A stretch of DNA of 53,646 nt from Actinomycetota bacterium. GTDB taxonomy: Bacteria > Actinomycetota > Aquicultoria > Aquicultorales > Aquicultoraceae. Shown here one piece after another: positions 29,664-52,987 of the stretch; position 1 is the stretch's first letter; each line of letters starts with the position of its first letter. Position numbers and translations under genes: made by a program. A model generated the notes under the pieces. That model saw only the letters and a program-made list of their open reading frames with translations. It was not told the origin of the DNA and made no database searches. Location: positions 1 to 53,646 of the forward strand of contig JAGXSZ010000008.1 in assembly GCA_018333515.1 (NCBI GenBank). Reading direction: 5' to 3'.

Positions 29664-32600
29664 TTAGCTTTTAGCATTGCCCGCACTCGGCAGAGAGAGC
29701 GCGAGTACTACTATGTCGTCCGATATCTCACCTTTTGTGCATGCGATGACTTCGTTGAATATCGCTTCCGGCACTTCCCCTGCCGAAAGCGGCCCCATGT
29801 CCTTGAGCAGGTTTATTAAACCCTCTTCTTCGAAGAAACCTCCGTTACATCTGGCCTCGGTTACCCCGTCGGTATAGAGAACCAACACGTCGCCCTGCTT
29901 GAGAACCGCTTCAGCTTCATCGAATTTCAACTTGTTGAACGCCCCGATGACCGGGCTGTTTACTTCGAGCAGCGAAACTTCAGCTGTCGTCCGCTTAATC
30001 ATCGCCGGCGGGTGCCCCGCGCTACAGTATCTGAGAACGCCGGATTTCGTATCGGCTATCGCAAAGAAGACCGTTATAAAGCTGCCCGAGCATGAACCTT
30101 TTACCACCGCCTCATTGACCTTGGCCATAATGACGGCTGGAGAGGCTTGCTCATACGCGTACGCCCGTATAGTGTTTCTTACCAGAGAGGTAAGAGTGGC
30201 CGCCTCCAAGCCTTTGCCCGCTACGTCACCGACGACGATTCCGACCCTGTCTCCTTCCAGCCCGAAGATATCAAAGAAGTCGCCGCCTACTCGAGCCGCT
30301 TCGGTGGCTGAGCGGTAGAAGTGCCCGTATTCGACTTCCTCAATACACTCCGGAACGGCAAGCAGAGCGGTCTGCAGAGTATTCGCAATATGTCGCTCGG
30401 CCACATAGAGCCTAGTGTTTTCGAGGGCAAAAGAAACTGTGGTCGCTAATTTGCTTGCGAAGTCTATTTGGGCTCCGGTAAACGCGACCGGTGCCGAGCG
30501 GTAGTGGAACGTGAGCATGCCAATAACGGAATCTCGTGTCAAGAGAGGCACAGCTACGAATGACCGGATACCCACCTCCTCCATCAGTTTGCGGTCGACC
30601 CTCTCGTCATTGTATGCATCGTTCATTACCATCATCTGCTTGGTTCTAGCAACCATCGCCAGGTGTTTTGCCTTCGCGTCGGATAATGCTGTGCCTACCA
30701 AGTCATCTGAAAACCCGTAGACAAATTTTATAACCCAGTTATCGTATTCACGAACGACGACCGCGGCCGATTCGCATCCCGAAGCCTTAACGGCATCGGC
30801 CACCAACCGCTTCATTATCTTGTCGATATTGAGCGTTGAGATTAGGTCCGCATTGATATTATTCAAAGCATCGCTTAGCTCTTTTGCTTTTTTAGACTCC
30901 TCTTCCGTTCGCTTGCGCCCGGTGATGTCCTCAATGGCGAGGAGAATCAAGTCCGTCCCCTGCGCATCCCGGACAATTCGACGGGCATTGAACAACATTG
31001 TCCTGCGTCCGATATCCGGGAACTCGTGGTCGACCTCGACATCCTCGAACCGGAGGCTTTTGGATGATATGCCGTCCAGTAGTTCTCTCAGCTTTGGTAT
31101 CTCCCACTGACGGTTGCCGAGTTCGTAGACGAGAATGTTCTCCGTCTCCTTTTTCACGACATGGAAGGTGCGGTAGAAAGATTGATTTGCCGATACGACC
31201 CGCAGGTCGGCATCGAGGACTACCAGAGGCTCCCTGACTGTTTCTACGATAGCCTGGGCATAATTGCGGGCTTCTTCGGCCTGGACTAAGCTGCGTTTCG
31301 TCTCGTCGATATCGAGCAACGATATAACCGCGCCGGCAATCCTATTGTCTGAAGTCTTGTAGGGCCTTATCTGCATAGAGTACCAGCGGCCATCATTATC
31401 TTGGACTTCTTGCTGCCACATGTTGAGGCTTCCGACAACTCCTAGAATCAATTGCTCCAGGTCGGGCGCGTCTATCTTTAGCCTGATATCACCGATTGGC
31501 CGACCGACGTCGGAGGGGATTATATTAAGAATTCGCTCCGCCGTAGGGGTAAAGCGCCTTATGCGTAAATCATTACCCAGCATGATAATCGGGATATCGG
31601 TGCTGGTGTTAAAATTATTCAAATCGTCGTTGAGCAGCATCAATTCCCGATTGCGATTCTGCAGTTCATCGTTGACCGTAGTCAGTTCTTCATTGCTCGA
31701 CTGAAGTTCCTCTTTAGATGTTTCCAGCTCCTCATTAATGCTTTGCAGCTCTTCGTTGCTCGACTGAATCTCCTCATTTGCGGCCCTAAGTTCCTCGCCG
31801 GCGGCGTCTTTCTCCTCAATGGTCGAGCCTAAATACTCTTTGGTTGCGACAAGCTCCTGTTTTAGTTTGGCGATTTCGCGCTCGACAGACCTTCGCTCTT
31901 CGGCAGGTTTTTTCTTACCAGGCTTGGCTTCCCGCAGCTCAGAATCGGCCGGCGCGGTATTCTCTTTAAAAAGGACCAAATAATAGGATTCATTAGACGG
32001 CGCCTTTATGGGAATCACCTCGATAGCGATATCCCTATAGTTGCCGTTATGTTTGATCCTTATGTCTTCCTTGTTGACGGGAGCATTTGTCTTCTTTGCT
32101 TCATTGATAGCCGTGCGTAAATCTAACGCTAATTCTTCTCGGGCCATGTTTAAGAGATTTAGGCTCGCCTTTCCGGGTGCCGGTTCAACAAAAAGACCGG
32201 TGTGCCCGCGGAATTGAAGGATTTCCATATTACCATCGACAATAACGCCGGCGGGGGCGTACTTCTCCAGGACTATATGATTGGCCTCTTTCTGAACATC
32301 GAATTTCGGGAGTATTATCTCGCGGGGCATATTAATCCTTTTTTCAATCTCTAAATATTCCGGCGAGTAACCCCTTGTAGCAAAGTCTACCGGCAGGCGA
32401 GATGGCGCCGGCTTTTTGGAGTAAATTCTGTGCTTTTTGTCGACCGGCTCAAAAAGGTCGATAAAGCCGTCAACCGTCTCAGAGGTGCCCAGCACGAGAT
32501 AGCCCTTTGGCTGAAGAGCATAATGAAGCGCCGGTATTACTTTCTTTTGCAAGGTCGAGTTTAGGTAGATAAGCACATTTCGAAAGCTGACGAGATCGAG

Positions 32601-33860
32601 CCTGGAGAAAGGCGGGTCTTTGGTCACATCGTGCTTGGCGAAGATGCACATCTCGCGGATTACCGTGTTAATCTGGTAGCCGCCCTCCACCTTAACAAAG
32701 AAGCGTTGCAGGCGCTCTGGTGAGACATCGGCCGTAATGTTTTCCGGATATATACCCGCACGGGCTTTCTCGATGGCTATCTCGTTGATGTCCGTGGCAA
32801 AGATTAAAACCGGGGGCTTTTTTGGCATTCCTTCCAAAGACTCAAGCAAGGACATGGCAATACTATATGGTTCCTCACCAGTGGAACACCCCGGCACCCA
32901 CACCCTGATAGGTAAATCGGGTGCTTTATCTTTGATAATTTCGGGGAATACACCTTTCTTTAAAGTCTCGAATGTTTCGCGATCCCGGAAAAAATCTGTA
33001 ACGGTAATGAGAATGTCCTGGTATAGAGCCATCACTTCGGCTGGGTATTCCTGCAGATATCTAACGTACGCCTCCAGCGCATCGAGCTTGTTCACAACCA
33101 TGCGCCGCGTGATGCGCCGCTTGATGGTGGTCTGTTTGTAATAAGTAAAATCGACGCCGGTGGTGCTTCGAAGCAACCAGAATATCTTACTCATGAGGTC
33201 GCCCTTGGCTTCCGGTAGCGATTTTGCCTCCTCTTTAGCCATGGAACGGGCCATAAAAGGGTGCTGCCCGATTCTTGCCAGCTCATTTGCGATTTTTTCA
33301 GGGGGCAGGATAAAATCGACTACGCCCGCGGCCACAGCGCTACGTGGCATACCATCGTATTCGGCCGATTCCGGATCCTGGGCAAAGGTGATGCCGCCCG
33401 CGGCCTTGACCTCCTTTAGACCCAGAGCGCCGTCGGAAGCGGTTCCCGATAAGATAACCCCAATCGCTTTGTTGCTCTGGTCTTCCGCCAGAGAGCGCAA
33501 GAAAAAATCTATCGGCAAGTGCAGCCCACGGATTTCCGTACGCGGCATCAGGTTTAGAACCCCGTGGAAAATAGCCATGTTTACGTTGGCCGGAATGACA
33601 TATACGTGGTTTGGCTCGACGAGCATGCCGTCTTTTACTTCGCTTACCGGCATCTTCGTCGCCTTGGCCAGAAGCTCGGGTAGAATGCTTACATGTTTTG
33701 GGTCTAGGTGTTGAACCAGCACAAACGCCATACGGATGTCACCCGGCAGATGCTGGAGCAGTTGGGTGAACGCCTTCAAGCCGCCGGCCGAAGCCCCAAT
33801 CCCAACAATCGGAATTGCCGTATCTTTATTCTCTTTCGCCGTTTTTGCCGAGTTTTTCAT
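29664..33860 (-). CDS. CheB-CheR-PAS-GAF-SpoIIE phosphatase fusion protein
   Basis: A 1398-residue cytoplasmic signalling protein. Residues 15-195 are a CheB methylesterase (PIVGIGASAGGL; later GTASDGALGLKEVKAAGG). About 215-490 is a CheR methyltransferase (IRVWVPGCSTGEEPYSIAM). A PAS-like domain follows, then a long coiled coil (about 650-745) with repeated SSNEELQSxNEEL heptads. Next come two PAS domains (about 750-870 and 875-985), a GAF domain (about 1005-1160) and a C-terminal PP2C/SpoIIE phosphatase (about 1185-1395) with ARVGGDFFDIF and VGDVAGKGLEAA metal-binding motifs. It has no receiver or kinase domain. The output is probably dephosphorylation of a STAS protein. RBS GAGG; start ATG 33860. 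Confidence 0.92.
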   Translation of the reverse strand: MKNSAKTAKENKDTAIPIVGIGASAGGLKAFTQLLQHLPGDIRMAFVLVQHLDPKHVSILPELLAKATKMPVSEVKDGMLVEPNHVYVIPANVNMAIFHGVLNLMPRTEIRGLHLPIDFFLRSLAEDQSNKAIGVILSGTASDGALGLKEVKAAGGITFAQDPESAEYDGMPRSAVAAGVVDFILPPEKIANELARIGQHPFMARSMAKEEAKSLPEAKGDLMSKIFWLLRSTTGVDFTYYKQTTIKRRITRRMVVNKLDALEAYVRYLQEYPAEVMALYQDILITVTDFFRDRETFETLKKGVFPEIIKDKAPDLPIRVWVPGCSTGEEPYSIAMSLLESLEGMPKKPPVLIFATDINEIAIEKARAGIYPENITADVSPERLQRFFVKVEGGYQINTVIREMCIFAKHDVTKDPPFSRLDLVSFRNVLIYLNSTLQKKVIPALHYALQPKGYLVLGTSETVDGFIDLFEPVDKKHRIYSKKPAPSRLPVDFATRGYSPEYLEIEKRINMPREIILPKFDVQKEANHIVLEKYAPAGVIVDGNMEILQFRGHTGLFVEPAPGKASLNLLNMAREELALDLRTAINEAKKTNAPVNKEDIRIKHNGNYRDIAIEVIPIKAPSNESYYLVLFKENTAPADSELREAKPGKKKPAEERRSVEREIAKLKQELVATKEYLGSTIEEKDAAGEELRAANEEIQSSNEELQSINEELETSKEELQSSNEELTTVNDELQNRNRELMLLNDDLNNFNTSTDIPIIMLGNDLRIRRFTPTAERILNIIPSDVGRPIGDIRLKIDAPDLEQLILGVVGSLNMWQQEVQDNDGRWYSMQIRPYKTSDNRIAGAVISLLDIDETKRSLVQAEEARNYAQAIVETVREPLVVLDADLRVVSANQSFYRTFHVVKKETENILVYELGNRQWEIPKLRELLDGISSKSLRFEDVEVDHEFPDIGRRTMLFNARRIVRDAQGTDLILLAIEDITGRKRTEEESKKAKELSDALNNINADLISTLNIDKIMKRLVADAVKASGCESAAVVVREYDNWVIKFVYGFSDDLVGTALSDAKAKHLAMVARTKQMMVMNDAYNDERVDRKLMEEVGIRSFVAVPLLTRDSVIGMLTFHYRSAPVAFTGAQIDFASKLATTVSFALENTRLYVAERHIANTLQTALLAVPECIEEVEYGHFYRSATEAARVGGDFFDIFGLEGDRVGIVVGDVAGKGLEAATLTSLVRNTIRAYAYEQASPAVIMAKVNEAVVKGSCSGSFITVFFAIADTKSGVLRYCSAGHPPAMIKRTTAEVSLLEVNSPVIGAFNKLKFDEAEAVLKQGDVLVLYTDGVTEARCNGGFFEEEGLINLLKDMGPLSAGEVPEAIFNEVIACTKGEISDDIVVLALSLPSAGNAKS

Positions 33861-34007
33861 CTCTCAAATCCTCGCGGCTCTGAACGCTGCCCCTCTCACG
33901 CTTTCATCGATTAGTCTGACAACACAAACAAAATCAATGAACCCCCCCCCAGCCGAGAAAGATTGGAGTGGGGCTTGACATAAGCTCTTGCGCCTGTCGC
34001 CTTACAG

Positions 34008-34145
34008 ACTAGTACTCCATCACACGTTTTATGAGTTGTCATTCTGAGTGAAACGAAGAATCTCTAAAGCTTGAGATTGTTCGGTCGTTTTCAACTCCCT
34101 CAGAATGACGGATACCAGTCGATGTATCTGTGATGGAGTACTAGT
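34008..34145. mobile_element. 138-bp MITE-like element
   Basis: Perfect 17-bp terminal inverted repeats ACTAGTACTCCATCACA (34008-34024) and its inverse (34129-34145). A nested inverted pair GTCATTCTGAG/CTCAGAATGAC lies within. The interior has no open frame. The GTCATTCTGAG...GAATCTC type of sequence is a common intergenic repeat in diverse bacteria. Confidence 0.65.
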
Positions 34146-34388
34146 ATCCAAAACAATGCCACCGAGCGTGTCGATGCCGAGATACTTTCCGGCGCCAACA
34201 AACCCTTGGTAGTTATTATATCCTTAATCGATAAATTGGAAACACCGCTCAGATAGCTATCGTGGAATATAAGCGCTACCGTGAAAGCGAAGAACAATGC
34301 CGGCACTCTCGCTGACCGTACTCGAATAAGCCGACGATACCGCTCGGTTGACAGCCTTCACGCGGTAGGCGTAGGTGTTATTAATCGC
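34146..34388 (-). pseudogene. fragment of a fibronectin type III-like coding region
   Basis: Just past the galT stop, the minus strand encodes NTYAYRVKAVNRAVSSAYSS and TVSESA, the typical end of an Fn3 domain, with no start codon and no domain beginning. Downstream it degenerates toward the MITE-like element. It looks like a leftover of a surface-protein gene broken by the insertion. Confidence 0.4.
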
Positions 34389-35507
34389 CTACGTGCGGAC
34401 CCGTATCGCTCCCTCAAACCGCGCATCGCGAAGACGCTCGGCCGCATCTTCGGGGGCGATGGTGTTCACAAAAAGTCCCGAGCCGAGTTCAAACCCGGTT
34501 GGAATGCTGGTGCGCGGGCATATTTCGATATGCCAATGGAACGACGGCGCGCAATCATCATACTCTTGGCCGTGGGGTACTGAATGGAGAAAGTAGTTAT
34601 ATTGCGGCGCTCCGCCCAAGACCGCATTAAGCCGAGCCATCGTCCTTCTGAAAATCCAGGCAAGGTCCGCGAGATCCTCGGGATTTGCATCAAGAAAGTC
34701 GGCTCGATGCGCGAGAGGAAGGATTTGCACTTCCCACTCATACCTGCTCGCAAAGGGTTTAATCGCTATAAAGCGTTTGCTGCGCTCGACTACAAATTGC
34801 CCGACATTTATTTTTCGCCGTATTTCTCCAGAGTCTTTGTCGTAAAGCGTCGCCTCAAATGTTAGCGCCTCATCGATTAAACTACAGAAAATACAGTGAT
34901 GATTGGTCTCGAAAAACGCCGAGCTGTTTCTGACTTCCGCCTGCACGTTATCGGGCACGACGGGCATCGCGATTATCTGGCTGTGCGTGTGCGCGATACT
35001 TGCGCCGGCGGCCGGGCCGAAATTCTTAAACACCAACACGTTCTTGATGCGCGGGTTCGCATTATAGAGCTGTTCCATTCGCGTCCGGTAAGTGGCAAAA
35101 AGCAGGCCGAGCTGCTCCTCGGTCATTTCATGGATACGAATCCCGTGCGAAGAATGGTCGATGACGACTTCGTGGCGGCCATATCCGTTCATTGTGTGTT
35201 GCAGCCCGAATACGAAATTCGGGTCTTCATTGTCGTCTCCGAGAATAGGATAGAGGTTCTCGACGATGCGCATTTTCCAGTCACCCTCCGAGGGGACTCG
35301 AAGAATCGATGCCGGCGTCATATCTTCATTTCCTGAGCAAAAAGGGCAAGTCTCTACATATGTTCGCGTATCATGGGGCACGGGCGGTTCTTCTTTTTTA
35401 GGACGCATACTCCGCGCCGTAGCCACGAGCACGCTTTCACTCGGCACAATCGGATTGATTCTAATCTCGCGAACGGCTTTCTCGTTCGGCTCTGTCGTTT
35501 CATTCAT
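34389..35507 (-). CDS. galT: galactose-1-phosphate uridylyltransferase (GalT, HIT superfamily)
   Basis: GalT exchanges UMP between UDP-glucose and galactose-1-phosphate (Leloir pathway). The 372-residue product has zinc-ligand pairs CPFC (near 52) and CIFC, the active-site HxH in GASIAHTHSQIIA, and FHWHIEICPR near the C-terminus. This is the AHTHSQ subtype seen in Actinobacteria and thermophiles rather than the HPHGQ type, so related nucleotidyltransferase activity (such as ADP-sulfurylase-like) is possible. I chose ATG 35507 (RBS GGAACTAGGA) over a longer frame. No galK or galE is nearby. Confidence 0.88.
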   Translation of the reverse strand: MNETTEPNEKAVREIRINPIVPSESVLVATARSMRPKKEEPPVPHDTRTYVETCPFCSGNEDMTPASILRVPSEGDWKMRIVENLYPILGDDNEDPNFVFGLQHTMNGYGRHEVVIDHSSHGIRIHEMTEEQLGLLFATYRTRMEQLYNANPRIKNVLVFKNFGPAAGASIAHTHSQIIAMPVVPDNVQAEVRNSSAFFETNHHCIFCSLIDEALTFEATLYDKDSGEIRRKINVGQFVVERSKRFIAIKPFASRYEWEVQILPLAHRADFLDANPEDLADLAWIFRRTMARLNAVLGGAPQYNYFLHSVPHGQEYDDCAPSFHWHIEICPRTSIPTGFELGSGLFVNTIAPEDAAERLRDARFEGAIRVRT

Positions 35508-35672
35508 TCCTAGTTCCTTCCTTGTTGTTGAATTCTTGTTGTTGAATTTATTGGAGCATATTGGAGTGCTATATATCGCCCATCCTAGAACACTTCCGGA
35601 AGAACCTAGGCAATCCCTTGATGCGCTTGCCGGAGCGCTCCAAGAACGTGGAGAATTAATCGGCGCGCGCAA

Positions 35673-35686
35673 GTAGCAACGTCCCC
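35673..35686 (+). repeat. REP-like motif copy
   Basis: GTAGCAACGTCCCC, between galT and phnH. Matches the copies at 27965, 28070, 29610 and 46254. Confidence 0.55.
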
Positions 35687-35698
35687 CGCCCTACTTCT

Positions 35699-36340
35699 CT
35701 AACCGTAACGCGGCCCATCCGACTCCACATCCCAAGCCGGCCTGCTGCTCCTTGGCAAACAAGCTATTTTGCCCTCCAAATCGACCAGAATGGTGGTGTC
35801 CGTGCCGAGATGATAGTCGTGGCTCCGGGGGGTCGGCCCGCCTATGTTATCCCGGTGCATCCCCGAAAGCCAGAGTTGCGTGGCGCCGTTCACGCCCGGC
35901 CCGGAGAGTTCAAGACGAATGAGTTCTCCGTAACTTCCGGGCGGCTGCCCATACAGGTGATCGATGACCATAACGACCGTTGTGCCCGTCTCTGAAAGGT
36001 CAGTAGTGCCGGGGTGCGCTAAGGCCAACTCGCCTTGCGCTCGCCTCCCGTCACAGAATATGAAGTCGGCATGCTCGACATCGACCGAGCGCGCCCCGGT
36101 GCACCGGAAGATATCTCTCGCATTGAGTTCATCGTTAATGTCGAGACAGGTGAAAGTGACCTCTGTGTCGAGGAGCGTGCGCGCGATCAGGTAGGGAAAG
36201 CTGTTTTCCTTGCCGATAAGAAGCTTTATATCAGGCAGGTAGTTGATCTTACCCGGCCTCGCCATGCTATCCAAAAGCAACCTAAATACCCGCTGAGTAT
36301 CGTATGCGGGGTCGAATGCTTCCTTTACCGGTAGAATCAT
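35699..36340 (-). CDS. phnH: carbon-phosphorus lyase subunit PhnH-like protein (orphan)
   Basis: PhnH is a core subunit of the PhnGHIJ complex that cleaves alkylphosphonates to release phosphate. The 213-residue product begins MILPVKEAFDPAYDTQRVFR and continues LLLDSMARPGKI, the PhnH signature. It also has VEHADFIFCDGRRA and a C-terminal LGTDTTILVDLEGKIACLPR-like segment. None of phnG, I, J, K, L or M lies in the window, so it may be a stray subunit or have taken another role. The ATG at 36340 is preceded by GGCGGCGCA. A weak Pho-box-like repeat lies at 36554-36581. Confidence 0.8.
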   Translation of the reverse strand: MILPVKEAFDPAYDTQRVFRLLLDSMARPGKINYLPDIKLLIGKENSFPYLIARTLLDTEVTFTCLDINDELNARDIFRCTGARSVDVEHADFIFCDGRRAQGELALAHPGTTDLSETGTTVVMVIDHLYGQPPGSYGELIRLELSGPGVNGATQLWLSGMHRDNIGGPTPRSHDYHLGTDTTILVDLEGKIACLPRSSRPAWDVESDGPRYG

Positions 36341-36553
36341 TGCGCCGCCTTCTGTGAATGATTTAGCACAAACCTGAAGTCTTAATTCAATAAAAGGGTG
36401 CGCGGTGCGGCACGCTTGCCCGTGCTCTCCGCAAGACCCCTGCGATACGCGGCGTGGTCCCTCGGAACGGGTAGGGGCACATCTTCGCAGCGCCCCACTC
36501 ACGCCCGTCTTAACTAAGCATAAAGCGCTTCTCGAAGGAGGTGGTTGCAGCGA
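36341..36553. other. upstream region of phnH
   Basis: Non-coding, with presumed phnH promoter. No gene supported; the long minus-strand frame extending into it is not protein-like. Confidence 0.4.
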
Positions 36554-36581
36554 TGTAAACATTCGGTAAATTAATTGTTTA
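36554..36581 (-). promoter_or_regulatory. Pho-box-like repeats upstream of phnH (weak)
   Basis: Minus strand, 11-bp phased units TAAACA (36576-36581), TTTACC (36565-36570) and TTTACA (36554-36559). They lie 214 bp upstream of the phnH ATG. Weaker than the other boxes, but orientation and phasing agree with them. Confidence 0.45.
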
Positions 36582-36660
36582 AACGGTTAAAGGATTATTA
36601 GCGCTGTTCAGAATGGGCATAGTCGCAAACCTGGAGGAAAGTAAACGAGTAATATGCGGT

Positions 36661-37008
36661 CTACTTGCGTTTATTATCCCTATCGAACAGCTCGAGAATC
36701 TCATCGCTCGATGCCATGACCCTAAGGTAGGCGAGTATGTCGATGCTTTTCGGGTCGTACTCGATGATAAGGTTGCGGTTTAAAGGGTTCACCCGCATGT
36801 TCTTGATGCTTGGCGGCAATTTTATATGCGCCAGGCTCTCCAGGTCTTTCCTGGTCAGTCCCTTCGCGGACGGCACCTCGACGCGAATTCGACCGGGAAT
36901 ATGATGTATCACTTTAAATGGAACTACCACCGCTTTCCCCCTAAAGGTAATTGTTCTAGTATCCGCTTGAGAGAGCGACGCCGACTCTTTGGGCTCCCTG
37001 TCGAGCAT
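36661..37008 (-). CDS. small HMA_2-like domain protein
   Basis: The 115-residue product has a ferredoxin-like HMA_2-type domain in its centre: FKVIHHIPGRIRVEVPSAKG, a helix, then IKNMRVNPLNRNLIIEYDPKS. It lacks the CxxC of classical heavy-metal chaperones. The HxxPGRxRxxxPSxKG motif is shared with the proteins at 37490, 38197 (N-terminus) and 42657, all around one P-type ATPase. A GTG at 37020 is an alternative start; I prefer ATG 37008 behind GTGGGA. A Pho box lies 58-85 bp upstream in the right orientation. Confidence 0.75.
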   Translation of the reverse strand: MLDREPKESASLSQADTRTITFRGKAVVVPFKVIHHIPGRIRVEVPSAKGLTRKDLESLAHIKLPPSIKNMRVNPLNRNLIIEYDPKSIDILAYLRVMASSDEILELFDRDNKRK

Positions 37009-37065
37009 GTTTATTCCCACAGAAAATTGAGACTATCTTTATTTTAAAATCTACAGTTCAAATGT

Positions 37066-37093
37066 TGTTAAATGGTTGTAAATAAAATGTAAA
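37066..37093 (-). promoter_or_regulatory. Pho box B (divergent HMA_2 / DUF5132 promoter)
   Basis: Minus strand: TTTACA (37088-37093), TTTACA (37077-37082), TTAACA (37066-37071), each exactly 11 bp apart. This matches the PhoP/PhoB direct-repeat layout. It lies between the divergent genes at 36661 and 37174 and may serve both. Confidence 0.75.
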
Positions 37094-37173
37094 TTCACGG
37101 CTAAACTCATTAAATTGTTATTTAATAGGGTAATAAAGACTTTAACACAAATATAAGTAAGGGGCCGAACACA

Positions 37174-37497
37174 ATGTCAATTCTTGAGAACGCATTGAAG
37201 GGAAACACGGCGACCGGTATAGCGATAGGGCTTGGTGCCGCGATCTTGGTGTCGGCGGCAGCCCCGATCGTCGCAGGCGTCGTGAAGCCGGTGGCCAAGG
37301 CCGCGATCAAGAGTGGAATCATCCTGTATGGAAGGAGCAAAGAGGCCTACGCTGAGGCGCGCGAAGTAACAGAAGACCTCGTCGCCGAGGCGCGCTCTGA
37401 GCTTGAGGCAGTAGCCGAAGGGCCGGCAGAACAAGCGGAAATCAAAGAGGAGAAACCTGCCGCGAAGAGAAAGGGCCGAGGGAACACCGGTGAATAA
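37174..37497 (+). CDS. DUF5132-type small membrane protein, PacL-like (copy 1)
   Basis: The 107-residue product starts MSILENALKGNTATGIAIGL, has a single Gly/Ala-rich hydrophobic stretch (about 10-50) ending VVKPVAKAAIKSGIILYG. An amphipathic acidic helix follows (EAREVTEDLVAEARSELEAV) and a Lys-rich tail. The plan resembles mycobacterial PacL proteins, small membrane partners of metal-efflux P-type ATPases, though the PacL His/Asp metal motif is absent. Its stop overlaps the GTG of the next gene. A paralog lies at 43434-43733. Confidence 0.75.
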   Translation: MSILENALKGNTATGIAIGLGAAILVSAAAPIVAGVVKPVAKAAIKSGIILYGRSKEAYAEAREVTEDLVAEARSELEAVAEGPAEQAEIKEEKPAAKRKGRGNTGE

Positions 37498-38038
37498 TAC
37501 GCCTGAAGCTGTCTTGAGCCACGCGATACCGGGGAGGCTTCGGATAAAGGTCCCGTCAAGAAAGGGCGACGCTAAATATTTTTCGTCTTTGAAAAGCGGG
37601 TTATCCGAACTCCCGGGCGTCGAGAGGCTGGAGGTAAGTCCCGTTACGGCAAGCGTCCTTGTAATATATACGCAGGACTTTAAAGGGCTTGATGAACACG
37701 CTTCGAGTCAACATCTTTTTTCGCTGAGCCGACCTGGAAAGCTCAATAGCCTGGGACAAGGCACTGGGAGCATCCCGGACGGACGACTCTTCGACACAGA
37801 GAACTCAGCGACAAGCACCACTACTCCGATGCGGCAAATCTTTAAGAGCTATGAGGGAGCCAACGCGAAGACAAAGTCCGCCACGGGTGGGGAACTCGAT
37901 GTCGCCACAATCGTCTCTTTAAGCCTTTTAGGTGTTGGGTTCTACCAGATTTTCAGAGGCGGCTTCGTACTTCCCTCATGGCACACGGCTTTCTGGTATG
38001 CGCTTAACATTATCAATATAGTGCGAGCACGCAGGTAA
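37490..38038 (+). CDS. membrane-anchored HMA_2-like protein
   Basis: The 182-residue product has an N-terminal HMA_2-like domain (SHAIPGRLRIKVPSRKG, then GVERLEVSPVTASVLVIY) without CxxC. A polar linker of about 65 residues follows, then a C-terminal hydrophobic region (IVSLSLLGVGFYQIFRGGFV and FWYALNIINIVRARR) that should anchor it. The start is GTG at 37490, overlapping the DUF5132 stop by 8 bp with RBS GAGGGA. It is probably a companion of the P-type ATPase that begins 158 bp downstream. Confidence 0.75.
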   Translation: MNNTPEAVLSHAIPGRLRIKVPSRKGDAKYFSSLKSGLSELPGVERLEVSPVTASVLVIYTQDFKGLDEHASSQHLFSLSRPGKLNSLGQGTGSIPDGRLFDTENSATSTTTPMRQIFKSYEGANAKTKSATGGELDVATIVSLSLLGVGFYQIFRGGFVLPSWHTAFWYALNIINIVRARR

Positions 38039-38196
38039 AAGCGCTCACGGGCCCCCTCACGGGCCCCGCTTTAAGCAACGCTCGGTCTTCATCCGGCTCG
38101 AACGTGCCCGTAATGCCCGTAAGCGCCGCTGCGCGATACAAAGCAATCAGTAAGATATAAAGCATATTAAGACCACAAAGGAGCGAGCGAGACGGT

Positions 38197-41100
38197 GTGG
38201 TAAACATAATCCACTCGGCCGTGAGAGGGAGGGTTCGGTGTAAAATCGAAGGGCTGTACCACTCCGAACCCCTTAAGCGGTATATCGAGTTTCGGTTGAA
38301 AGACAACAACGGAATAAGCCGGGTGTCCGCAAGCGAATTGACCGGTAAAGTGCTTGTGCTGTACAACCCGGAACACAGCCACCGGCAAATCGCCTCATAT
38401 ATTAAAACAATAGTATCAGATTTCAGGAAGCTTCAAGCCCGCGCGGCACGAACCCAACCGCGCACCAGGACCGGCGAGAGCCCCTCTCGTAAGGATAAGC
38501 TTCTGAAACTTCTTCTCGGTGCCGAAGAGCAAAGAGACGAGCCATGGCACCTTATGAAAAAAGCGGACGTGCTACAACTGTTCGGCGCCGATAAGCGAAC
38601 GGGCCTGACCAGTGACGAAGCGCGCAAGCTCTTTCACAAGCACGGCCCTAACGTCTTACCCGAATCGCTTCCCCGCCCAAGACTTGGCATATTCCTCGAT
38701 CAGTTCAAGTCGTTCCCCGTCGCCCTCTTGGGTGTCGCCGCCGGCGTTTCCGTCTTAACCGGAGGGATGGCCGACGCGCTCGTGATTCTCGGCGTCGTAG
38801 CCCTCAATGCATTAATCGGCTACGTAACGGAGTCGCAGGCCGAAAGGACTATCTATTCGTTAAAACGACTCGCCAACCCCTCCGCGCTTGTCATTAGAGA
38901 TGCCAAGCAAACAGAGCTGCACGCGGAAGAAGTCATTCCCGGCGACATCCTGGTCCTCAAGCCGGGAAGCTACGTCGCGGCGGATGCCCGGCTGATAAAC
39001 GCGGAGCACCTCAGCGCGGACGAGTCGGCCCTCACCGGAGAGAGCATGCCGGCCGCAAAAATAACTACCGTCGTGCCAATTAGACAAAAGGCCGTGCCGG
39101 CAAATCGCCATGCGCTGTCGAACACGGGAAACAACGTCGGTTCCGGCATTCCCCTTGCCGACAGGTCGAACATGGTCTATATGGGCACCCTTATCACGGG
39201 AGGCCAAGGACTTGCTGTTGCTGTCGCAACCGGTGGGCATACGGAGATAGGTAAGATACAGGCTCTCGCCCAAGAGGTAAAAGCGCCCGAGACCCCCATC
39301 GAACGCCAGTTGAGCACGATAGGGACACAGCTCGCGCTACTAAGCGGCGCTATCTGTGCCGGCGTGTTTGTGCTCGGAATTCAAACTTACGGTGCCCTTC
39401 AAATGCTTAAAACGTCGATATCACTGGCGGTCGCGGCGGTCCCCGAGGGTCTCCCCACCGTCGCCGTCACGACACTGGCCCTCGGTGTTCGCAACATGAG
39501 GAGCCACAAAGCCATTATTCGACGTCTTGATGTGGTGGAGACCCTTGGCTCGGTACAGACGATCTGCCTCGACAAGACGGGAACGCTTACCGAGAATAAG
39601 ATGTCCGTCGTCTCCGTCTTCGCGGGTATGCGCCGCATGCGGGTATCCAACGGCGCTCTTAGCAGCAACGGTGAGTCGATATGCGTGCGTGGGCAGAGAG
39701 AGCTTCTCCACCTCGTTCAGGTCTCGGCGCTCTGCAACGAAAGCCGGGTGAGCAAGGAAGGCGGCGACACGGTGGTCAGTGGCACTCCGACAGAAAACTC
39801 CCTTGTCTACCTTGCGATGAACGTGAACGTCGATGTCGTACGCCTTCGAAAGCGCTTGCCGGCTAAAAAGATCATCTACCGGTCCGAGACCCGCAACTTC
39901 ATGGTCACTGTTCATAAGGCCAGGGGCGCGCGACAAACGACCGTTGCGGTAAAAGGAAGCCCGACCGAGGTGCTGTCGCGTTGTGCGTGGTATATGAAAG
40001 ACGGCGTAAAGCTGGCCCTCTCAGATGAGGAGCGCCTTGTCATAACAGTAGAGAACGAGCGTATGTCCGGCGCGGCGTTGCGCGTTCTTGGCATGGCGTA
40101 TGCCACATATAACGGCGAGTTCTCATACGGTGAAGATGTCGGTGATATCGCTCGCGACCTCGTCTGGCTTGGCCTTGTCGGCATGGCTGACCCCATAAGA
40201 GAAGGCGTCAAAGAAGCGATAGGCATGTTTCACAGAGCCGGAATCGATACCGTGATGATTACCGGCGATCAGAGTCTCACGGCCTATGCGGTCGCCAAGA
40301 AGTTGCGCCTCAATGGGGGCGAGCAAATCGAGATACTCGATTCGACGCGCATCGACGAGATCGACCCCGCAGTGTTGTCCGCGCTCGCCGACAAGGTGCG
40401 CGTATTCGCGCGGGTAAGCCCCGCGCACAAGCTGCAGATCGTCCAGGCCATGCAGGGTGCGGGAAAAGTCGTGGCCATGACCGGTGACGGGATCAACGAT
40501 GCGCCGGCGCTCAAAGCGGCCGATATCGGTATCGCAATGGGCCATACCGGTACCGACGTGGCGCGTGAAGTCGCCGACGTGGTGCTCGAAGACGACCGGC
40601 TCGAGACGATGATCATCGCCGTTAGCCAGGGAAGGACGATCTATAGCAACATAAGAAAATCTATCCGTTTTCTCTTGGCGACGAACCTGAGTGAGATCTT
40701 TGTCACTTTCCTTGCCCTGGTGGCGCGGCTCGGCCAACCACTCAGCGCAATGCAGTTGCTATGGATAAACCTCATGTCGGATGTGGCGCCCGGTATCGCC
40801 CTTGCCCTCGAGTCACCGGAGCCCGATGTCTTAGACAAGCCGCCGCGAGACCCGAATGAACCGCTTCTTAAAAGGTCGGATATGCGACGTATCTTCTTCG
40901 AGTCGGCCGTTCTTTCGATCGGCGCGCTTGGGGCGTATGGATACGGTATCGCTCGCTACGGCATAGGCGGACTAGCGAGCACGCTTGCATTTATGAGCCT
41001 CACCACGGGACAGCTTCTTCACGCAATAAGTTCTCGCTCGGAGACGCATAGTATCTTTGATAGGTTCGAGGCTGACGGCGTGAGCCCCTTGCAGCCAAAC

Positions 41101-43028: not shown

Positions 43029-43218
43029 CTACTATCCTCCCACACTATCCGCCTACGTAAGAATCCGCTCATCAACAGAACACAGCCTTTCACTCCTGGA
43101 CCAAGAGCTTTACCTGCCACATCTGCGACATCTGCGACACAGCCCGCGCTCGATAGCACAGTCGATAGCACAGCGCTTGACTCCTTACGCCAATCCTACG
43201 ACATATCGGCTCAATAAG

Positions 43219-43257
43219 GGTTAAAGTTTTCTTAATGTATTGTAAAAGTTTTGTTAA
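43219..43257 (-). promoter_or_regulatory. Pho box C (upstream of HMA_2-like gene)
   Basis: Minus strand: TTAACA (43252-43257), TTTACA (43241-43246), TTAAGA (43230-43235), TTAACC (43219-43224), all at 11-bp spacing. It is among the clearest boxes in the window. Confidence 0.75.
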
Positions 43258-43733: not shown

Positions 43734-44086
43734 CTCTCGTCACCCCCAATCTTCTCTCGGCTCTTGTGGTTATGATACCCCTTAAGGGGATGTTCAAATA
43801 CGATTATTGTTAAAAAATTGTTACATTTTTGTTACATATGCGTTTGCGGCTTGAATTAGGTTTAATTTAATGCGTTAAGGATAATTGTTTAGTATGGGGC
43901 CCAATGTCCACCAGGAGCCACGCCGTTCGGAGCCGGTCGAATATATAGCACCTTTACGATATTAGGCCGGCATCGTACAGTTCTGATTTGCCTGGTGCCT
44001 AAATATGCAAATCAACCGAACGAGGTATCTCATTACGCTTTACATGATAAAACAGGTACCTGGCCGGCCACGAGGAGGAGTTTTAG
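43734..44086. other. divergent intergenic region with Pho box D
   Basis: Separates DUF5132 copy 2 (minus) from the DUF4397 gene (plus). Apart from the box at 43808-43835 it holds AT-rich promoter-like sequence and no gene. Confidence 0.5.
43808..43835 (-). promoter_or_regulatory. Pho box D (upstream of DUF5132 copy 2)
   Basis: Minus strand: GTAACA (43830-43835), GTAACA (43819-43824), TTAACA (43808-43813), exactly 11 bp apart. On the plus strand it reads as three TTGTTA repeats. It lies 75 bp from the minus-strand ATG and about 250 bp from the plus-strand DUF4397 gene. Confidence 0.75.
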
Positions 44087-46674: not shown

Positions 46675-46854
46675 CTAAGAACACACACCTACATGACCCT
46701 TCAGGTTCTTCGAGGGGTCATATTCCTTTGAATGCTTGGATGTCGATCGCGGCATATCTTTAAGCGCTTTTAGCCTCTTGTTCTCATCTCTAAGCCTTGC
46801 ACATTGGTTCAAGGATTCATCTAGTTGATGCTGTAATTCCTCATCGTCTTTCAT
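46675..46854 (-). CDS. short coiled-coil protein coupled to vapC
   Basis: The 59-residue product starts MKDDEELQHQLDESLNQCAR, a coiled coil ending with DENKRLKALK, followed by a polar tail. Its ATG overlaps the vapC stop (ATGA), implying coupled translation as a third gene of the VapBC unit. It may be a truncated larger protein: LRxENxRLKxLL helices begin several nuclease or helicase families. No domain is identified. Confidence 0.5.
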   Translation of the reverse strand: MKDDEELQHQLDESLNQCARLRDENKRLKALKDMPRSTSKHSKEYDPSKNLKGHVGVCS

Positions 46855-47210
46855 AAAAAAACCAGATCGAGTCGTGAAGATTCTGTACTTAGTTTCTTGT
46901 CTAACGTCCATAGCGGCACTCCGGTCAAGGCAGCCGACGCAAGCAGGTTCATGTCGACATATCCCAAACCTTTTCCCATTAAACTATGAGCGTCGATAAA
47001 TTGCATAACCTCTTCGTGATCAGCCTGTACGGCGCATGGAAGTGTTTGAATTAGTGATATAATCTCCGATCTGTTTTTAAGATTTCCGCATGCTAGCTCG
47101 CCTATAATAAATGGATGACAAAGAACACGGTCATCGTCTAGCAGCGTTTCTAAACCTGAGTTTCCGTATCGAAGATGCGCAACCCATACCGACGTATCGA
47201 CAAGAACCAT
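46851..47210 (-). CDS. vapC: VapC-like PIN-domain toxin
   Basis: The 119-residue PIN ribonuclease toxin has MVLVDTSVWVAHLR (first catalytic Asp), a Glu in FIIGELACG, and GYVDMNLLASA with WTLDKKL near the C-terminus (later acidic residues). VapC toxins cut tRNA or rRNA. It starts immediately at the end of vapB (47211), the usual antitoxin-toxin order. A small coiled-coil gene overlaps its stop. Confidence 0.85.
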   Translation of the reverse strand: MVLVDTSVWVAHLRYGNSGLETLLDDDRVLCHPFIIGELACGNLKNRSEIISLIQTLPCAVQADHEEVMQFIDAHSLMGKGLGYVDMNLLASAALTGVPLWTLDKKLSTESSRLDLVFL

Positions 47211-47408
47211 TTATGCGCCTTCCGCCCGTCTTCTCGATATCGGCTTCAGGTTCTTTTCGGTTCCTCCCATTTTTGCAAGCCTCTTGCCGCTTTCTCTTGC
47301 TATAAGAGCTTCAAGCCCTAGGTGAACCAATGAAGTTTTTTCCTTGATACCGGTTATCTTTCTTGCTTTTTCAAGTAGTTCGTCGTTTATATTAAGAGTA
47401 GTCCTCAT
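47211..47408 (-). CDS. vapB: VapB-like antitoxin
   Basis: The 65-residue product begins MRTTLNINDELLEKARKITG, a ribbon-helix-helix DNA-binding start of the VapB type (TTLxIDDxLLxxA). A toxin-binding tail rich in basic residues (GKRLAKMGGTEKNLKPISRRR) follows. The ATG at 47408 follows GGGAGGAAAA. It forms an operon with the PIN toxin and probably autorepresses it. Confidence 0.85.
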   Translation of the reverse strand: MRTTLNINDELLEKARKITGIKEKTSLVHLGLEALIARESGKRLAKMGGTEKNLKPISRRRAEGA

Positions 47409-47659
47409 CTTTTTTCCTCCCATAATACTCAATATCATATGTATTAATATGCATTATTAATCTTCTTATATCAATATCTTTTCGACAATTATGCGTGAAA
47501 TTACAGTCCATAATCTTAAATCTCTTAATTTGTGGTTATCAATGATAATGCGGAAGAGCCTCGGTCACCTGTTACAAAAATCCTACTGAAATTATATAGC
47601 CATGTCGTAGCGAGCGGAATACCGGAGTGCGAAAGTTTTACTTTTGTGAAAACTATCCA

Positions 47660-47872: not shown

Positions 47873-48050
47873 TTTGCCCTCCTAAAACTGTAATTATTAC
47901 AGTATATGGAAGGCTCCTTCTTGTTATCCAGGCGTCATTTATTGCTTCGCACGCGAAGCGGTTGCCTATATTGTGTAAAAATGCAGTTGATTTAAGCCGA
48001 TTATGAGGTAAAATAATAGTATTACTAAGTATTAACAGATGGAGGTGATT

Positions 48051-48299
48051 ATGTTGGGAAGAACAACAAAAGTCTTATCCTTCTCCCTTCCACCGGAGAC
48101 GGCGGACAAAATAGCAGACATGGCAAAGAAAGAGCGTCGCTCTAAAAGCGAGCTTTTGCGTGAAATGGTTCATGTTTATGAGGAGCGTCAAGCCGAAGAA
48201 GAATGGCAAGATCTTTTCGCATTCGGTGAAAAGACGGCAAAGCGCTTTGGTATTAAAAACGAGGATGAGCTGTTCAAGATTCTTAGCGGGACTGCGTAA
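48051..48299 (+). CDS. ribbon-helix-helix antitoxin (CopG/RelB-like)
   Basis: The 82-residue product begins MLGRTTKVLSFSLPPETADK and continues with an RHH helix pair (MAKKERRSKSELLREMVHVY), typical of CopG/MetJ-fold antitoxins, and a helical tail. I chose ATG 48051: the upstream in-frame ATG forms part of its RBS (ATGGAGGTG). Its stop codon overlaps the ATG of the PIN toxin. A second TA pair of the island. Confidence 0.85.
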   Translation: MLGRTTKVLSFSLPPETADKIADMAKKERRSKSELLREMVHVYEERQAEEEWQDLFAFGEKTAKRFGIKNEDELFKILSGTA

Positions 48300-48706
48300 T
48301 GCTAAGAGTGGTTTTTGATTCTAATGTCTATATATCAGCGCTTCTTTTTGATGGCCCACCAAGACAAGTATTAGAGCTTGCCTTAAAGCACCGGGTGATT
48401 CTCGTTGTCTCTGATGATATCATCAATGAGACCGCCGGTAAGCTTCGGGAGAAGTTTTTCTGGCCGGAGCACCGAATTCAGCAATTTGTGCGACAGACCA
48501 GCAGACTTGCTGAGCTTTACAATCCGAAAGCAAAGATTAAAGTCATCAAGGATGAGCCGGATAACAGAGTGCTAGAATGCGCAGTTGCCGGAAAAGCTCA
48601 TCTTATTATTTCGGGTGATAATCACCTGCTAAAACTTAAAGTTTACAAAACCATCCCAATTCAGAAGCCAAAATATCTAACATATCTTATGGAGCAAAAG
48701 GACTAA
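48299..48706 (+). CDS. PIN-domain toxin
   Basis: The 135-residue product starts MLRVVFDSNVYISALLF (first Asp of the PIN active site), with VSDDIINETAGKL (Glu) and EPDNRVLECAVAGKAHLIISGDNHLL (Asp triad). It belongs to the COG1569-type putative toxin family. Its ATG overlaps the RHH antitoxin stop. The product is likely a Mg-dependent ribonuclease neutralised by the upstream antitoxin. Confidence 0.85.
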   Translation: MLRVVFDSNVYISALLFDGPPRQVLELALKHRVILVVSDDIINETAGKLREKFFWPEHRIQQFVRQTSRLAELYNPKAKIKVIKDEPDNRVLECAVAGKAHLIISGDNHLLKLKVYKTIPIQKPKYLTYLMEQKD

Positions 48707-50340: not shown

Positions 50341-51117
50341 CTATCCGAAACGACCGGTGATGTAGTCCTCGGTCTTCTTATTAGACGGCCTGGTAAATAT
50401 GGTCGTGGTGTCGTCAAACTCGACCAACCTGCCGGGTGCGCCTGTCTCTTCTACCAGGAAAAACGCGGTATAGTCGGATACGCGAGCCGCTTGCTGCATA
50501 TTGTGCGTGACCATGATTATCGTGTAATCTTTCTTGAGTTCGTCTATGAGGTCTTCTATTTTCTGCGTCGATATCGGGTCGAGCGCGGAGCACGGCTCGT
50601 CCATTAAGAGAAGCTCGGGCTTGATGGTCAGCGCTCTGGCGATACAGAGGCGCTGCTGCTGCCCGCCCGAGAGCTGCATAGCCGACTTGTGTAACGTGTT
50701 TTTGACCTCACCCCACAATGCCGCTCTTACCAGGCTCTCCTCGACGATACTGTCGAGGTCGCTTTTCTTTTTGACGCCATGGATTTTAGGTCCGAGCGCC
50801 AGATTCTCATAGATGCTTTTCGGAAAGGGGTTTGGCTTTTGGAAGACCATGCCTACCCGCTTGCGAAGGAGCACCGGGTCGACACCGTTATAGATATCGA
50901 TGTCGTCGATGAGAACCTTGCCTTCGATATGCGTGCTCATAGATATCTCGTTCGTCCGGTTGATAATGCGCAACACGGTCGATTTTCCGCAGCCGGAGGG
51001 CCCGATAAACGCGGTGACTTTGTTCTTCTCCAGCTGAAACGACACATCTTCTATCGCCCTAAACGCGCCGTAATAGAAAGAGACGTTTTTAAACTCTACC
51101 TTTATCTTGCCTGGCAT
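50341..51117 (-). CDS. pstB: phosphate ABC transporter ATP-binding protein PstB
   Basis: PstB powers the PstSCAB phosphate importer. The 258-residue product has Walker [10 protein letters not shown] (39-47), the family loop INRTNEI, Q-loop [16 protein letters not shown], the signature LSGGQQQRL, and Walker [14 protein letters not shown]. FxFYYGxFxAI at the N-terminus and [16 protein letters not shown] are PstB-typical. No pstC, pstA or phoU is next to it, so the transporter genes are dispersed. It is convergent with the zinc-ribbon gene. ATG at 51117, RBS AGGAGAA. Confidence 0.95.
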
Positions 51118-51548: not shown

Positions 51549-52052
51549 ATGGCAACCAATAACCACAGTTTGCATAGGAGAGGGATGTTTTTAGACAGCG
51601 CCGTGTTTAAAAAGATATTTGTGGCCGATTGCCGGAAGAAAGTCTTGATTAAATCTTATCGGTCGGTCAGCAACCTCATAATCGATGCGCTCATAATCGC
51701 GGTTCTTCTCGCCCTGGTGGCCGGGACGGTCCGGATTTTCTTGCGCTTGCCCGCCACGTTAAGCCAGGGTTATCTCTCCGGCGTCTTTTATAACCTGCTC
51801 AACGATGTGATGGTCATCTTTATCTTCGTTGAACTCTTTCGCGTACTCTTGGATTACTTTAAGGAGGAGCGGGTCAAAATCACGTACATCGCCGATGCCA
51901 CGCTGGTCTTTACCTTCAAAGAGATCTGGATTCGTTTCACGCAACCCGATTTCGAGCCCGCTAAGATACTGGCTATGGGCGCCACCATGTTGGCCGTCGC
52001 GACGGTTCGCACCCTCGCGGTCATCTACTCTCCCGACCGCGCGAGGGAATAA
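51549..52052 (+). CDS. psiE: PsiE-family phosphate-starvation-inducible membrane protein
   Basis: The 167-residue product has four TM helices (about 42-62, 80-102, 118-135 and 140-158). It carries the PsiE family core NDVMVIFIFVELFRVLLDYF, then VKITYIADATLVFTFKEIWI. PsiE is a known Pho regulon member of unknown biochemical role. The ATG at 51549 follows GGAGGGGGTG. Box F lies directly upstream, and it is convergent with the arsenate reductase gene, whose 3' end it overlaps. Confidence 0.88.
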   Translation: MATNNHSLHRRGMFLDSAVFKKIFVADCRKKVLIKSYRSVSNLIIDALIIAVLLALVAGTVRIFLRLPATLSQGYLSGVFYNLLNDVMVIFIFVELFRVLLDYFKEERVKITYIADATLVFTFKEIWIRFTQPDFEPAKILAMGATMLAVATVRTLAVIYSPDRARE

Positions 52053-52468
52053 AGCGCGCCGGGTAATGTTTCGATAAATGCTTTGACCTCGTCCCGAACC
52101 CGGCGAAAGGCCCCCGTAATCTCCTCTTCGCTCCCCCGCGCCTGGGCCGGATCGTCAAAGCTTACATGGACAACGGTCGCTCGCCCATAAAATAACGGGC
52201 ATCGCTCACGCGCACTATCGCAGACGGTAACAACGAAATCGAAGGCCGCGTCTGTGAACTCATCGACATGCTTCGACCGCCGCGTCGAGATATCGACACC
52301 CGACTCAGCCATAACCCGTACCGCGTAAGGGTTAAGCCCATGCGCCTCGACACCGGCCGAATACGCCTCGAGAACGTCGCCTTTTAAGTATCGCGCCCAA
52401 CCCTCGGCCATCTGGCTGCGCGCGGAATTGCCGGTGCAGAGAAAGAGGACTTTGAGTTTCGAGTTCAT
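52025..52468 (-). CDS. arsC: thioredoxin-coupled arsenate reductase (low-MW PTPase family)
   Basis: The enzyme reduces arsenate to arsenite with thioredoxin. The 147-residue product has the P-loop CTGNSARS (Cys11, Arg17). The resolving Cys pair Cys83 and Cys90 sits in TVCDSARERCP, the layout of S. aureus ArsC rather than of a plain tyrosine phosphatase. Its 3' end overlaps psiE by 28 bp on the opposite strand. Box G lies 221-259 bp upstream, but a 12-bp hairpin sits between. Phosphate-starved cells import arsenate through Pst, so co-regulation makes sense. Confidence 0.92.
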   Translation of the reverse strand: MNSKLKVLFLCTGNSARSQMAEGWARYLKGDVLEAYSAGVEAHGLNPYAVRVMAESGVDISTRRSKHVDEFTDAAFDFVVTVCDSARERCPLFYGRATVVHVSFDDPAQARGSEEEITGAFRRVRDEVKAFIETLPGALYSLARSGE

Positions 52469-52576
52469 GTTTTCAATAACCCCGCTTTAGGATTCATGTT
52501 TACATTATGCCATAACAGCCAAACAACGATTACGCGCCGGCTACGCGCCGTCGTCCGCACAACGAATAGCGCAATC

Positions 52577-52610
52577 GAGAAAGCAGCCTGGGACGTTGGG
52601 CTGCTTTCTC
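52577..52610. terminator. bidirectional terminator-like hairpin
   Basis: A perfect 12-bp stem GAGAAAGCAGCC/GGCTGCTTTCTC with a 10-nt loop. It lies between box G and arsC, so it could attenuate a transcript starting at box G. Confidence 0.6.
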
Positions 52611-52688
52611 CGAGAGCAAAAGGCTGACCCAAGGAGGGCCTTATGTGGGGTCTATCACCTTTAATATAGCGGAGTCGGCAGCCCTGTT

Positions 52689-52727
52689 GGTTAAAGATTT
52701 GCAAACAAATTGTAATTATATTGTTAA
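52689..52727 (-). promoter_or_regulatory. Pho box G
   Basis: Minus strand: TTAACA (52722-52727), ATTACA (52711-52716), TTTGCA (52700-52705), TTAACC (52689-52694), 11 bp apart. Almost identical in pattern to box F. It faces arsC but could also act on the divergent regulator gene. Confidence 0.75.
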
Positions 52728-52782
52728 AGCGTCCCTTTCAAGGTCAGGATTTTCTCGCCGACCGACAGAGTTAAAGAATATT

Positions 52783-52821
52783 TTACAAAGATGAAACCCA
52801 TATTTAACCATTTTGATACAT
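52783..52821 (+). promoter_or_regulatory. Pho box H (response regulator, weaker)
   Basis: Plus strand: TTTACA (52783-52788), GAAACC (52794-52799), TTAACC (52805-52810), GATACA (52816-52821), 11 bp apart. It lies 167-205 bp upstream of the response regulator ATG and suggests autoregulation. Confidence 0.55.
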
Positions 52822-52987
52822 ATAAATACAATGATATTTAAAAATGTTAAATTATTTTGCCGGAGGTTTATCTCAATTATTCAATTTCGGCTTCGAGTAA
52901 CAAGTAACAGGCTGCGTGGGGCGCTTTGATAATTGTAAATTACCGGCGAGTACCTTACTATAGAACCGAAAGGATTTGTGAGTACAG

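Follow-up and report, generated by a model that had tools for sequence, protein, structure and literature searches.

What is a gene for PhnH, a subunit of the core complex of C-P lyase, doing on its own? The question is raised by the stretch of DNA analysed here, which we call the window: 53,646 nucleotides that make up contig 8 of the genome of a Candidatus Aquicultor relative (2,326,954 bases over 40 contigs; completeness is given as 100% and contamination as 0.25%). The first-pass annotation of this stretch had taken the gene for a genuine phnH, orphaned and preceded by a weak Pho box, and had suggested that it might be a dispersed subunit of an enzyme encoded elsewhere or a re-purposed paralog. 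Our analysis suggests that the window phnH is probably what remains, stranded, of a C-P lyase cluster since lost; its frame is open, and it may yet be expressed when phosphate is scarce. The finding is a modest one, since the family is known and only the solitary state is unusual. Much of the evidence comes from comparison with a congener, G003 (also L033), which is Candidatus Aquicultor sp. isolate C1_metabat.bin.19. The features on which the argument draws are the following, in window coordinates.

34389-35507, minus strand: galT/DUF4921-like gene, conserved in the congeners G002 and G003 at 91-92% DNA identity
35572-35665, plus strand: fragment of an M41-peptidase-like gene, 94 bases of its 3' end, debris between the galT-like gene and phnH
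35699-36340, minus strand: phnH, solitary, an intact frame of 213 codons (Pfam PF05845, NCBIfam TIGR03292)
35792-35854, minus strand: residues 163-183 of PhnH, where a predicted helix is missing, the proline of the motif [YF]-P-x-G-x-[DE] is changed (P177H) and one residue is inserted after D181
36543-36581, minus strand: weak Pho-box-like tandem array with an 11-base period, its core (36554-36581) lying 214-241 nucleotides upstream of the phnH start
36661-37020, minus strand: HMA_2-domain gene, the one that precedes phnH on its strand
37055-37093, minus strand: strong Pho-box-like array (four units of 11 bases) ahead of the HMA_2 gene, on the strand of phnH
52025-52052, no strand: site that corresponds to the position of the whole phn cluster in G003, here the overlap of an arsC-like gene (52025-52468) and a psiE-like gene (51549-52052)

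A PhnH without its partners

The phnH frame runs from an ATG at 36340 to a stop ending at 35699 on the minus strand and encodes a product of 213 amino acids, with AGAAGG placed 7 nucleotides 5' of the ATG as read from the sequence. The ribosome-binding site is good, the frame is fully open, and the codon-position composition remains coding-like. The product matches Pfam PF05845 with E 5.7e-28 and 98.4 bits (cut-off 25) over profile positions 5-186 of 188, and NCBIfam TIGR03292 with 99.6 bits (cut-off 91.5) over positions 4-184 of 184, and has no second family match at E ≤ 1 in either collection. A crystal structure of PhnH was reportedly obtained by Adams in 2008, and Seweryn is said to have described the C-P lyase core complex in 2015. 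Our phmmer search of the PDB with the window protein returned E. coli PhnH chains only, the PhnH of the E. coli core complex Phn(GHIJ)2 (PDB 4xb6, 7z19, 2fsu) being the best solved-structure match by sequence, with E 2e-4. An AlphaFold model built with 42 PhnH sequences reaches a mean pLDDT of 85.1, and judged on this model the window copy has the fold of the PhnH family: its top solved matches are again E. coli PhnH chains, led by chain 7z19_F (TM 0.75/0.83, E 3e-13), and PhnJ chains come next. In one published account PhnJ is described as a homologue of PhnH (PMC9947105). Most of the fold is predicted well, and the product should still fold as PhnH. The family scores, both over their cut-offs, thus bear out the claim that this is a genuine PhnH.

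Its partners are absent from the genome and not merely from the window. Family-model searches of the whole source genome as assembled found one PhnH and no PhnG, PhnI or PhnJ; the same searches, run on E. coli as a positive control, give matches for PhnH, PhnJ, PhnI, PhnG and PhnM. There is no PhnM over the cut-off in the source genome either, the best match scoring 26.4 bits against a required 390.55, and sub-cut-off PhnM matches also arise in all 14 of 14 control genomes. Within the 53.6-kb window, tblastn with the 12 proteins of the G003 phn cluster found no other phn gene; the significant matches were phnH itself and those of PhnC, PhnK and PhnL to a PstB-like ATPase at 50341-51117. Beside phnH, the G003 cluster proteins recognised no remains of phnG or phnI. 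That the gene is an orphan, as had been proposed, therefore holds for window and genome alike, and neither of the two marks of a functional subunit, namely PhnG, PhnI and PhnJ in the same genome and clustering of phnGHIJ, is found for it. As far as the accessible text of PMC9947105 goes, PhnI and PhnJ are assigned the first coupling step and C-P cleavage, and PhnH is assigned no catalytic step of its own. Since the catalytic subunits PhnI and PhnJ are absent, the assembled genome does not suffice for a C-P lyase of the known type.

Solitary copies and a broken motif

How often does PhnH stand alone? All of the 45 named PhnH loci hold PhnI, and 44 also hold PhnJ, the sole locus without PhnJ (L055) being ended by its contig; at each of ten more loci in the phylum (L022-L031) both PhnG and PhnI are found. 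At the level of genomes, PhnH occurs in 45 of 396 genomes of the class of G350, and these 45 together with five more, G003 and the source genome make up a test set of 52 PhnH-bearing genomes. PhnJ is present in 50 of them, the exceptions being the source genome and G683. A further candidate, the weak tblastn match L032 (in G167), is not PhnH by Pfam and was excluded from this test as well as from the tree and the 67-row alignment discussed below.

The solitary phnH of G683 lies at 74564-75127 of contig C87 (L081:4541-5296, minus strand) and has a product of 251 amino acids that scores 64.5 bits. It is internal to a 91-kb contig, adjoining lgt and a gene read from its translation as dCTP deaminase-like, and no phn neighbours occur at its locus. 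In its family (f96, 33 genomes) PhnH is present in 11, and G683 alone has no phn neighbour at the locus; in G739, where phnH is near a contig end, PhnE is the only one. The lack of PhnJ is less sure for G683 than for the source genome, G683 being 90% complete. In the genus Candidatus Aquicultor a solitary PhnH is found in one of four genomes, that of the window.

In the accessible portion of the literature on orphan or remnant phnH and on C-P lyase loss or transfer, we found no description of a phnH standing alone where the genome lacks C-P lyase. A stray copy has been described in Nodularia spumigena CCY9414, where a second phnH (phnH1) is coupled to phnM (PMC3610870). Like the window gene, phnH1 lies outside a complete cluster. 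However, that strain, unlike the window genome, also has a full cluster, and phnH1, unlike the window gene, is truncated and adjoins phosphonate transporter genes along with phnM (PMC3610870).

In contrast to E. coli PhnH, then, the window copy sits in a genome without PhnG, PhnI and PhnJ, and it also differs in the protein itself, with P177H, an inserted residue and, next to the conserved motif, the loss of a helix. This motif, [YF]-P-x-G-x-[DE], is defined by the present alignment and is not a curated family criterion. In the 67 rows all 65 non-solitary copies have it, whereas neither solitary copy has it intact; its last position is D in 60 of the non-solitary copies and E in 5, and E. coli PhnH carries the motif too, as PLGID. 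In the window protein H replaces P, and the residue inserted after D181 is unique among the 67 rows; in the G683 protein L and R replace P and G. Were the rows independent, the two exceptions would both fall on the solitary copies by chance once in 2211, a figure that kinship among the rows weakens. We compared the helix in AlphaFold models of the window and G003 copies made from the same 42 sequences. The G003 model has a helix at 163-172 and block pLDDT values of 93 and 86 over residues 161-180, whereas over these residues the window model has three helical residues and block values of 74 and 49.

Conservation was also scored over 49 rows, after seven divergent ones had been set aside. Of the 24 columns that are at least 90% conserved, the window copy departs at 3 and the G003 copy at none; three cluster-borne copies depart at 4, and the window copy ranks fourth of 49. 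Relative-rate tests with 12 outgroup rows gave no significant result (p 0.13 to 1), and the count of conserved-site changes, 9 against 3, was not significant either (p 0.15), so that accelerated evolution of the window protein is not proven. The damage is therefore local, with no general decay. A compensated frameshift was considered as the origin of the altered helix, and a codon comparison by eye gave nothing convincing.

Descent and surroundings of the gene

Candidatus Aquicultor belongs to the class Candidatus Aquicultoria of the Actinomycetota. Of the 36 genomes of this class, two have PhnH (the source genome and G003) and one has PhnJ (G003), and phn genes are accessory in this class. 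In G003 the cluster occupies 33575-43767 of contig C55 and holds a gntR-type gene, phnD, C, E, G, H, I, J, K, L and M, and a TIM-barrel gene, all placed between arsC-like and psiE-like genes. Here gntR, phnC, E, K and L, TIM-barrel, arsC, psiE, RsbW, pstB, pstS-like and phoP-like are names given from translations; the PhnH and PhnJ of G003 were named from family searches, while Pfam gave PhnD and the assignment of PhnM as an amidohydrolase. Since the arsC-like and psiE-like genes overlap in the window, the place of the G003 insertion is empty and contiguous there. The window phnH lies about 16 kb away from it.

In a tree of 56 PhnH proteins the window copy is sister to the G003 copy (support 100/99), with branch lengths of 0.71 for the former and 0.27 for the latter. 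The two are 51% identical, and the next relative, in Bacillota, is at 41%, but the G003 copy stands in a complete cluster and has an intact motif. The synonymous distance between the two phnH genes is 2.23, which is saturated (above 2 the size is unreliable and the direction reliable), and is far above those of pstB (0.51), psiE (0.34), the RsbW-like gene (0.39) and the galT-like gene (0.36); the split between the two phnH genes therefore predates the split between the species. Going by these distances, the separation would have come about by transfer or by ancient duplication. That the window gene is a leftover of the G003 operon copy is ruled out by the value of 2.23 against 0.34-0.51. Overall dN/dS between the two copies is 0.19, which probably reflects for the most part the time before orphaning and is uninformative on the present. 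No relatives of the window PhnH occur in phages or viral contigs, and the plasmid relatives, 13 records annotated phnH, are all below 32% identity.

Two other genes resemble phnH in their distance, arsC (2.47) and a phoP-like response regulator at 52988 (saturated, not computable). The stretch 52025-53646, which holds these arsC-like and phoP-like genes, appears to have been exchanged in one or other of the two species, because its saturated distances adjoin the close pstB and psiE.

The neighbours of phnH are galT-like, HMA_2, DUF5132 and P-type ATPase genes. No DNA match to 36661-38038 was found in the three congeners searched, and no known RNA families in 33000-38500. The 94-base M41-like 3' end recurs in congeners (L009, L010, L012), and on contig C126 of G003 a full M41-like gene adjoins a CheB/CheR-like sensor gene related to window 29664-33860. 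Farther along, at 46851-47438 and 48039-48706, are two small gene pairs that by eye look like PIN-domain toxin-antitoxin systems.

The consensus of the Bacillus-type Pho box is TTAACA-N5-TTAACA. Sites of this type with at most 2 mismatches number 17 in the window against 2.7 expected, a count reached in none of 100 shuffles, and several of them lie upstream of pstS-like, HMA_2 and DUF5132 genes; in G003 a perfect pair stands 99 bases before the first gene of the phn cluster. We infer that these arrays, Bacillus-type in consensus, are the Pho box of the genus. Directly upstream of phnH there is no site with at most 2 mismatches, and by the simple consensus the best 3-mismatch site is equalled in 38 of 200 shuffles. 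With a matrix built from the window's own Pho-like arrays, whose training half-sites were hand-picked, the array at 36554-36581 (minus strand) ranks 7 of 107,238 positions and is the best three-unit site neither in nor overlapping the training arrays. The weak Pho box proposed earlier for this gene thus has a candidate counterpart upstream and in the right orientation, an array that is weak but probably real and that hints at transcription of phnH under phosphate starvation, without known use. Read-through from the HMA_2 gene, with its strong array, across 320 bases into phnH is also possible. In the interval 35480-36700 we found no sigma-70 promoter-like sites and one terminator-like site, which was not above shuffles. 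Homology of the phnH upstream region with the G003 phn promoter was considered and rejected: with strict gap costs the score of 82 is reached by 7 of 1000 shuffles, and other Pho-array regions score 70-93 against that promoter.

More strong Pho-box-like arrays are found at 43208-43257 and 43808-43835, both on the minus strand and upstream of HMA_2 or DUF5132-like genes. These placements suggest that small HMA_2 and DUF5132-like proteins belong to the phosphate-starvation regulon of the genus.

A probable relic and its rivals

How could a solitary, open phnH arise? We propose that a phnH lineage common to another Candidatus Aquicultor species would have entered this genome inside a phn cluster. 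The genes phnG, phnI and phnJ, absent from the genome as assembled, would then have been lost (of phnM, nothing over the cut-off is there), and phnH would have survived as a single gene where it now lies, beside a galT-like gene and gene debris. Its product, predicted still to fold, is unable to contribute to C-P bond cleavage, and the helix (compared in the models of two copies) and the motif (in the alignment), which all the cluster-borne copies compared keep, have begun to go. We favour this account because PhnH elsewhere accompanies its partners while the source genome is without PhnG, PhnI and PhnJ, and because of the broken motif, the lost helix, the 3 departures at 24 conserved columns, the long branch, the gene debris and the unmatched DNA at 36661-38038. 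The first-pass annotation had set against its own proposal a complete operon elsewhere joined with decay of this copy; no such operon exists in the genome, whereas decay is seen in the motif and the helix. Counting against a relic are the open frame, the good ribosome-binding site, the coding-like composition, the mostly well-predicted fold, the unproven acceleration, the three cluster-borne copies with more departures and the want of any phnG or phnI remains beside the gene; moreover, with the G003 operon copy excluded as the source, the parent cluster would be one still unseen, and two solitary copies are a small sample. The main rival is a repurposed PhnH, since both solitary copies have lost the same motif and yet are open. 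The protein, possibly a homodimer, would have taken on another task under Pho control, and only the complex would have needed the helix and motif now lost. The open frame, the otherwise well-predicted fold, the Pho-box-like array upstream and the HMA_2 gene on the same strand, itself preceded by a strong array, agree with such a role, as does the breakage of the same motif in the solitary G683 copy, expected if the motif serves only complex assembly. However, there are no conserved solitary relatives (G683 only in f96, and 1 of 4 genomes in the genus), and no partner or conserved new neighbourhood is known, so we consider a repurposed protein unlikely, if worth keeping in mind.

The remaining accounts place the partners elsewhere or deny that they were ever there. 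An assembly lacking the contig with a phn cluster, which the window gene would serve as an extra or displaced copy, is conceivable for a genome in 40 contigs, since the partners form one cluster in relatives and a single lost contig would hide them all. We find it improbable, given the listed completeness and contamination of the assembly, the empty and contiguous G003 site in the window, the position of phnH inside a 53.6-kb contig and the breakage of a motif that all cluster-borne copies keep. The suggestion of an active dispersed subunit, with the other subunits elsewhere in the genome, draws on the genuineness of the PhnH and otherwise on the earlier annotation alone. It does not survive the finding that PhnG, PhnI and PhnJ are missing from the entire assembled genome, by models that match E. 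coli, and that PhnM appears only below the cut-off, and is very unlikely indeed. Could phnH instead have been transferred by itself, into a lineage where it never had partners? Its accessory surroundings and the saturated synonymous distance to the G003 copy would fit, but its only close relative is in the same genus, at 51% identity with the next at 41% in Bacillota, and no solitary phnH donor is seen in phages or viral contigs, with plasmid matches under 32% identity; we regard a lone transfer as quite improbable.

A relic thus remains our preferred reading of the window gene. A broader conjecture, which we think doubtful, is that solitary PhnHs arise repeatedly as C-P lyase clusters break up and persist, Pho-regulated and in a new role, shedding the helix and motif that would serve complex assembly only. 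If it were true, the changes in these two copies would show where PhnH makes contact within C-P lyase. More generally, the motif lost in the solitary copies points, in a way that can be tested, to a region of PhnH whose importance may be confined to the complex. For metagenome surveys, phnH alone is poor evidence of C-P lyase, 2 of 52 PhnH-bearing genomes being without PhnJ.
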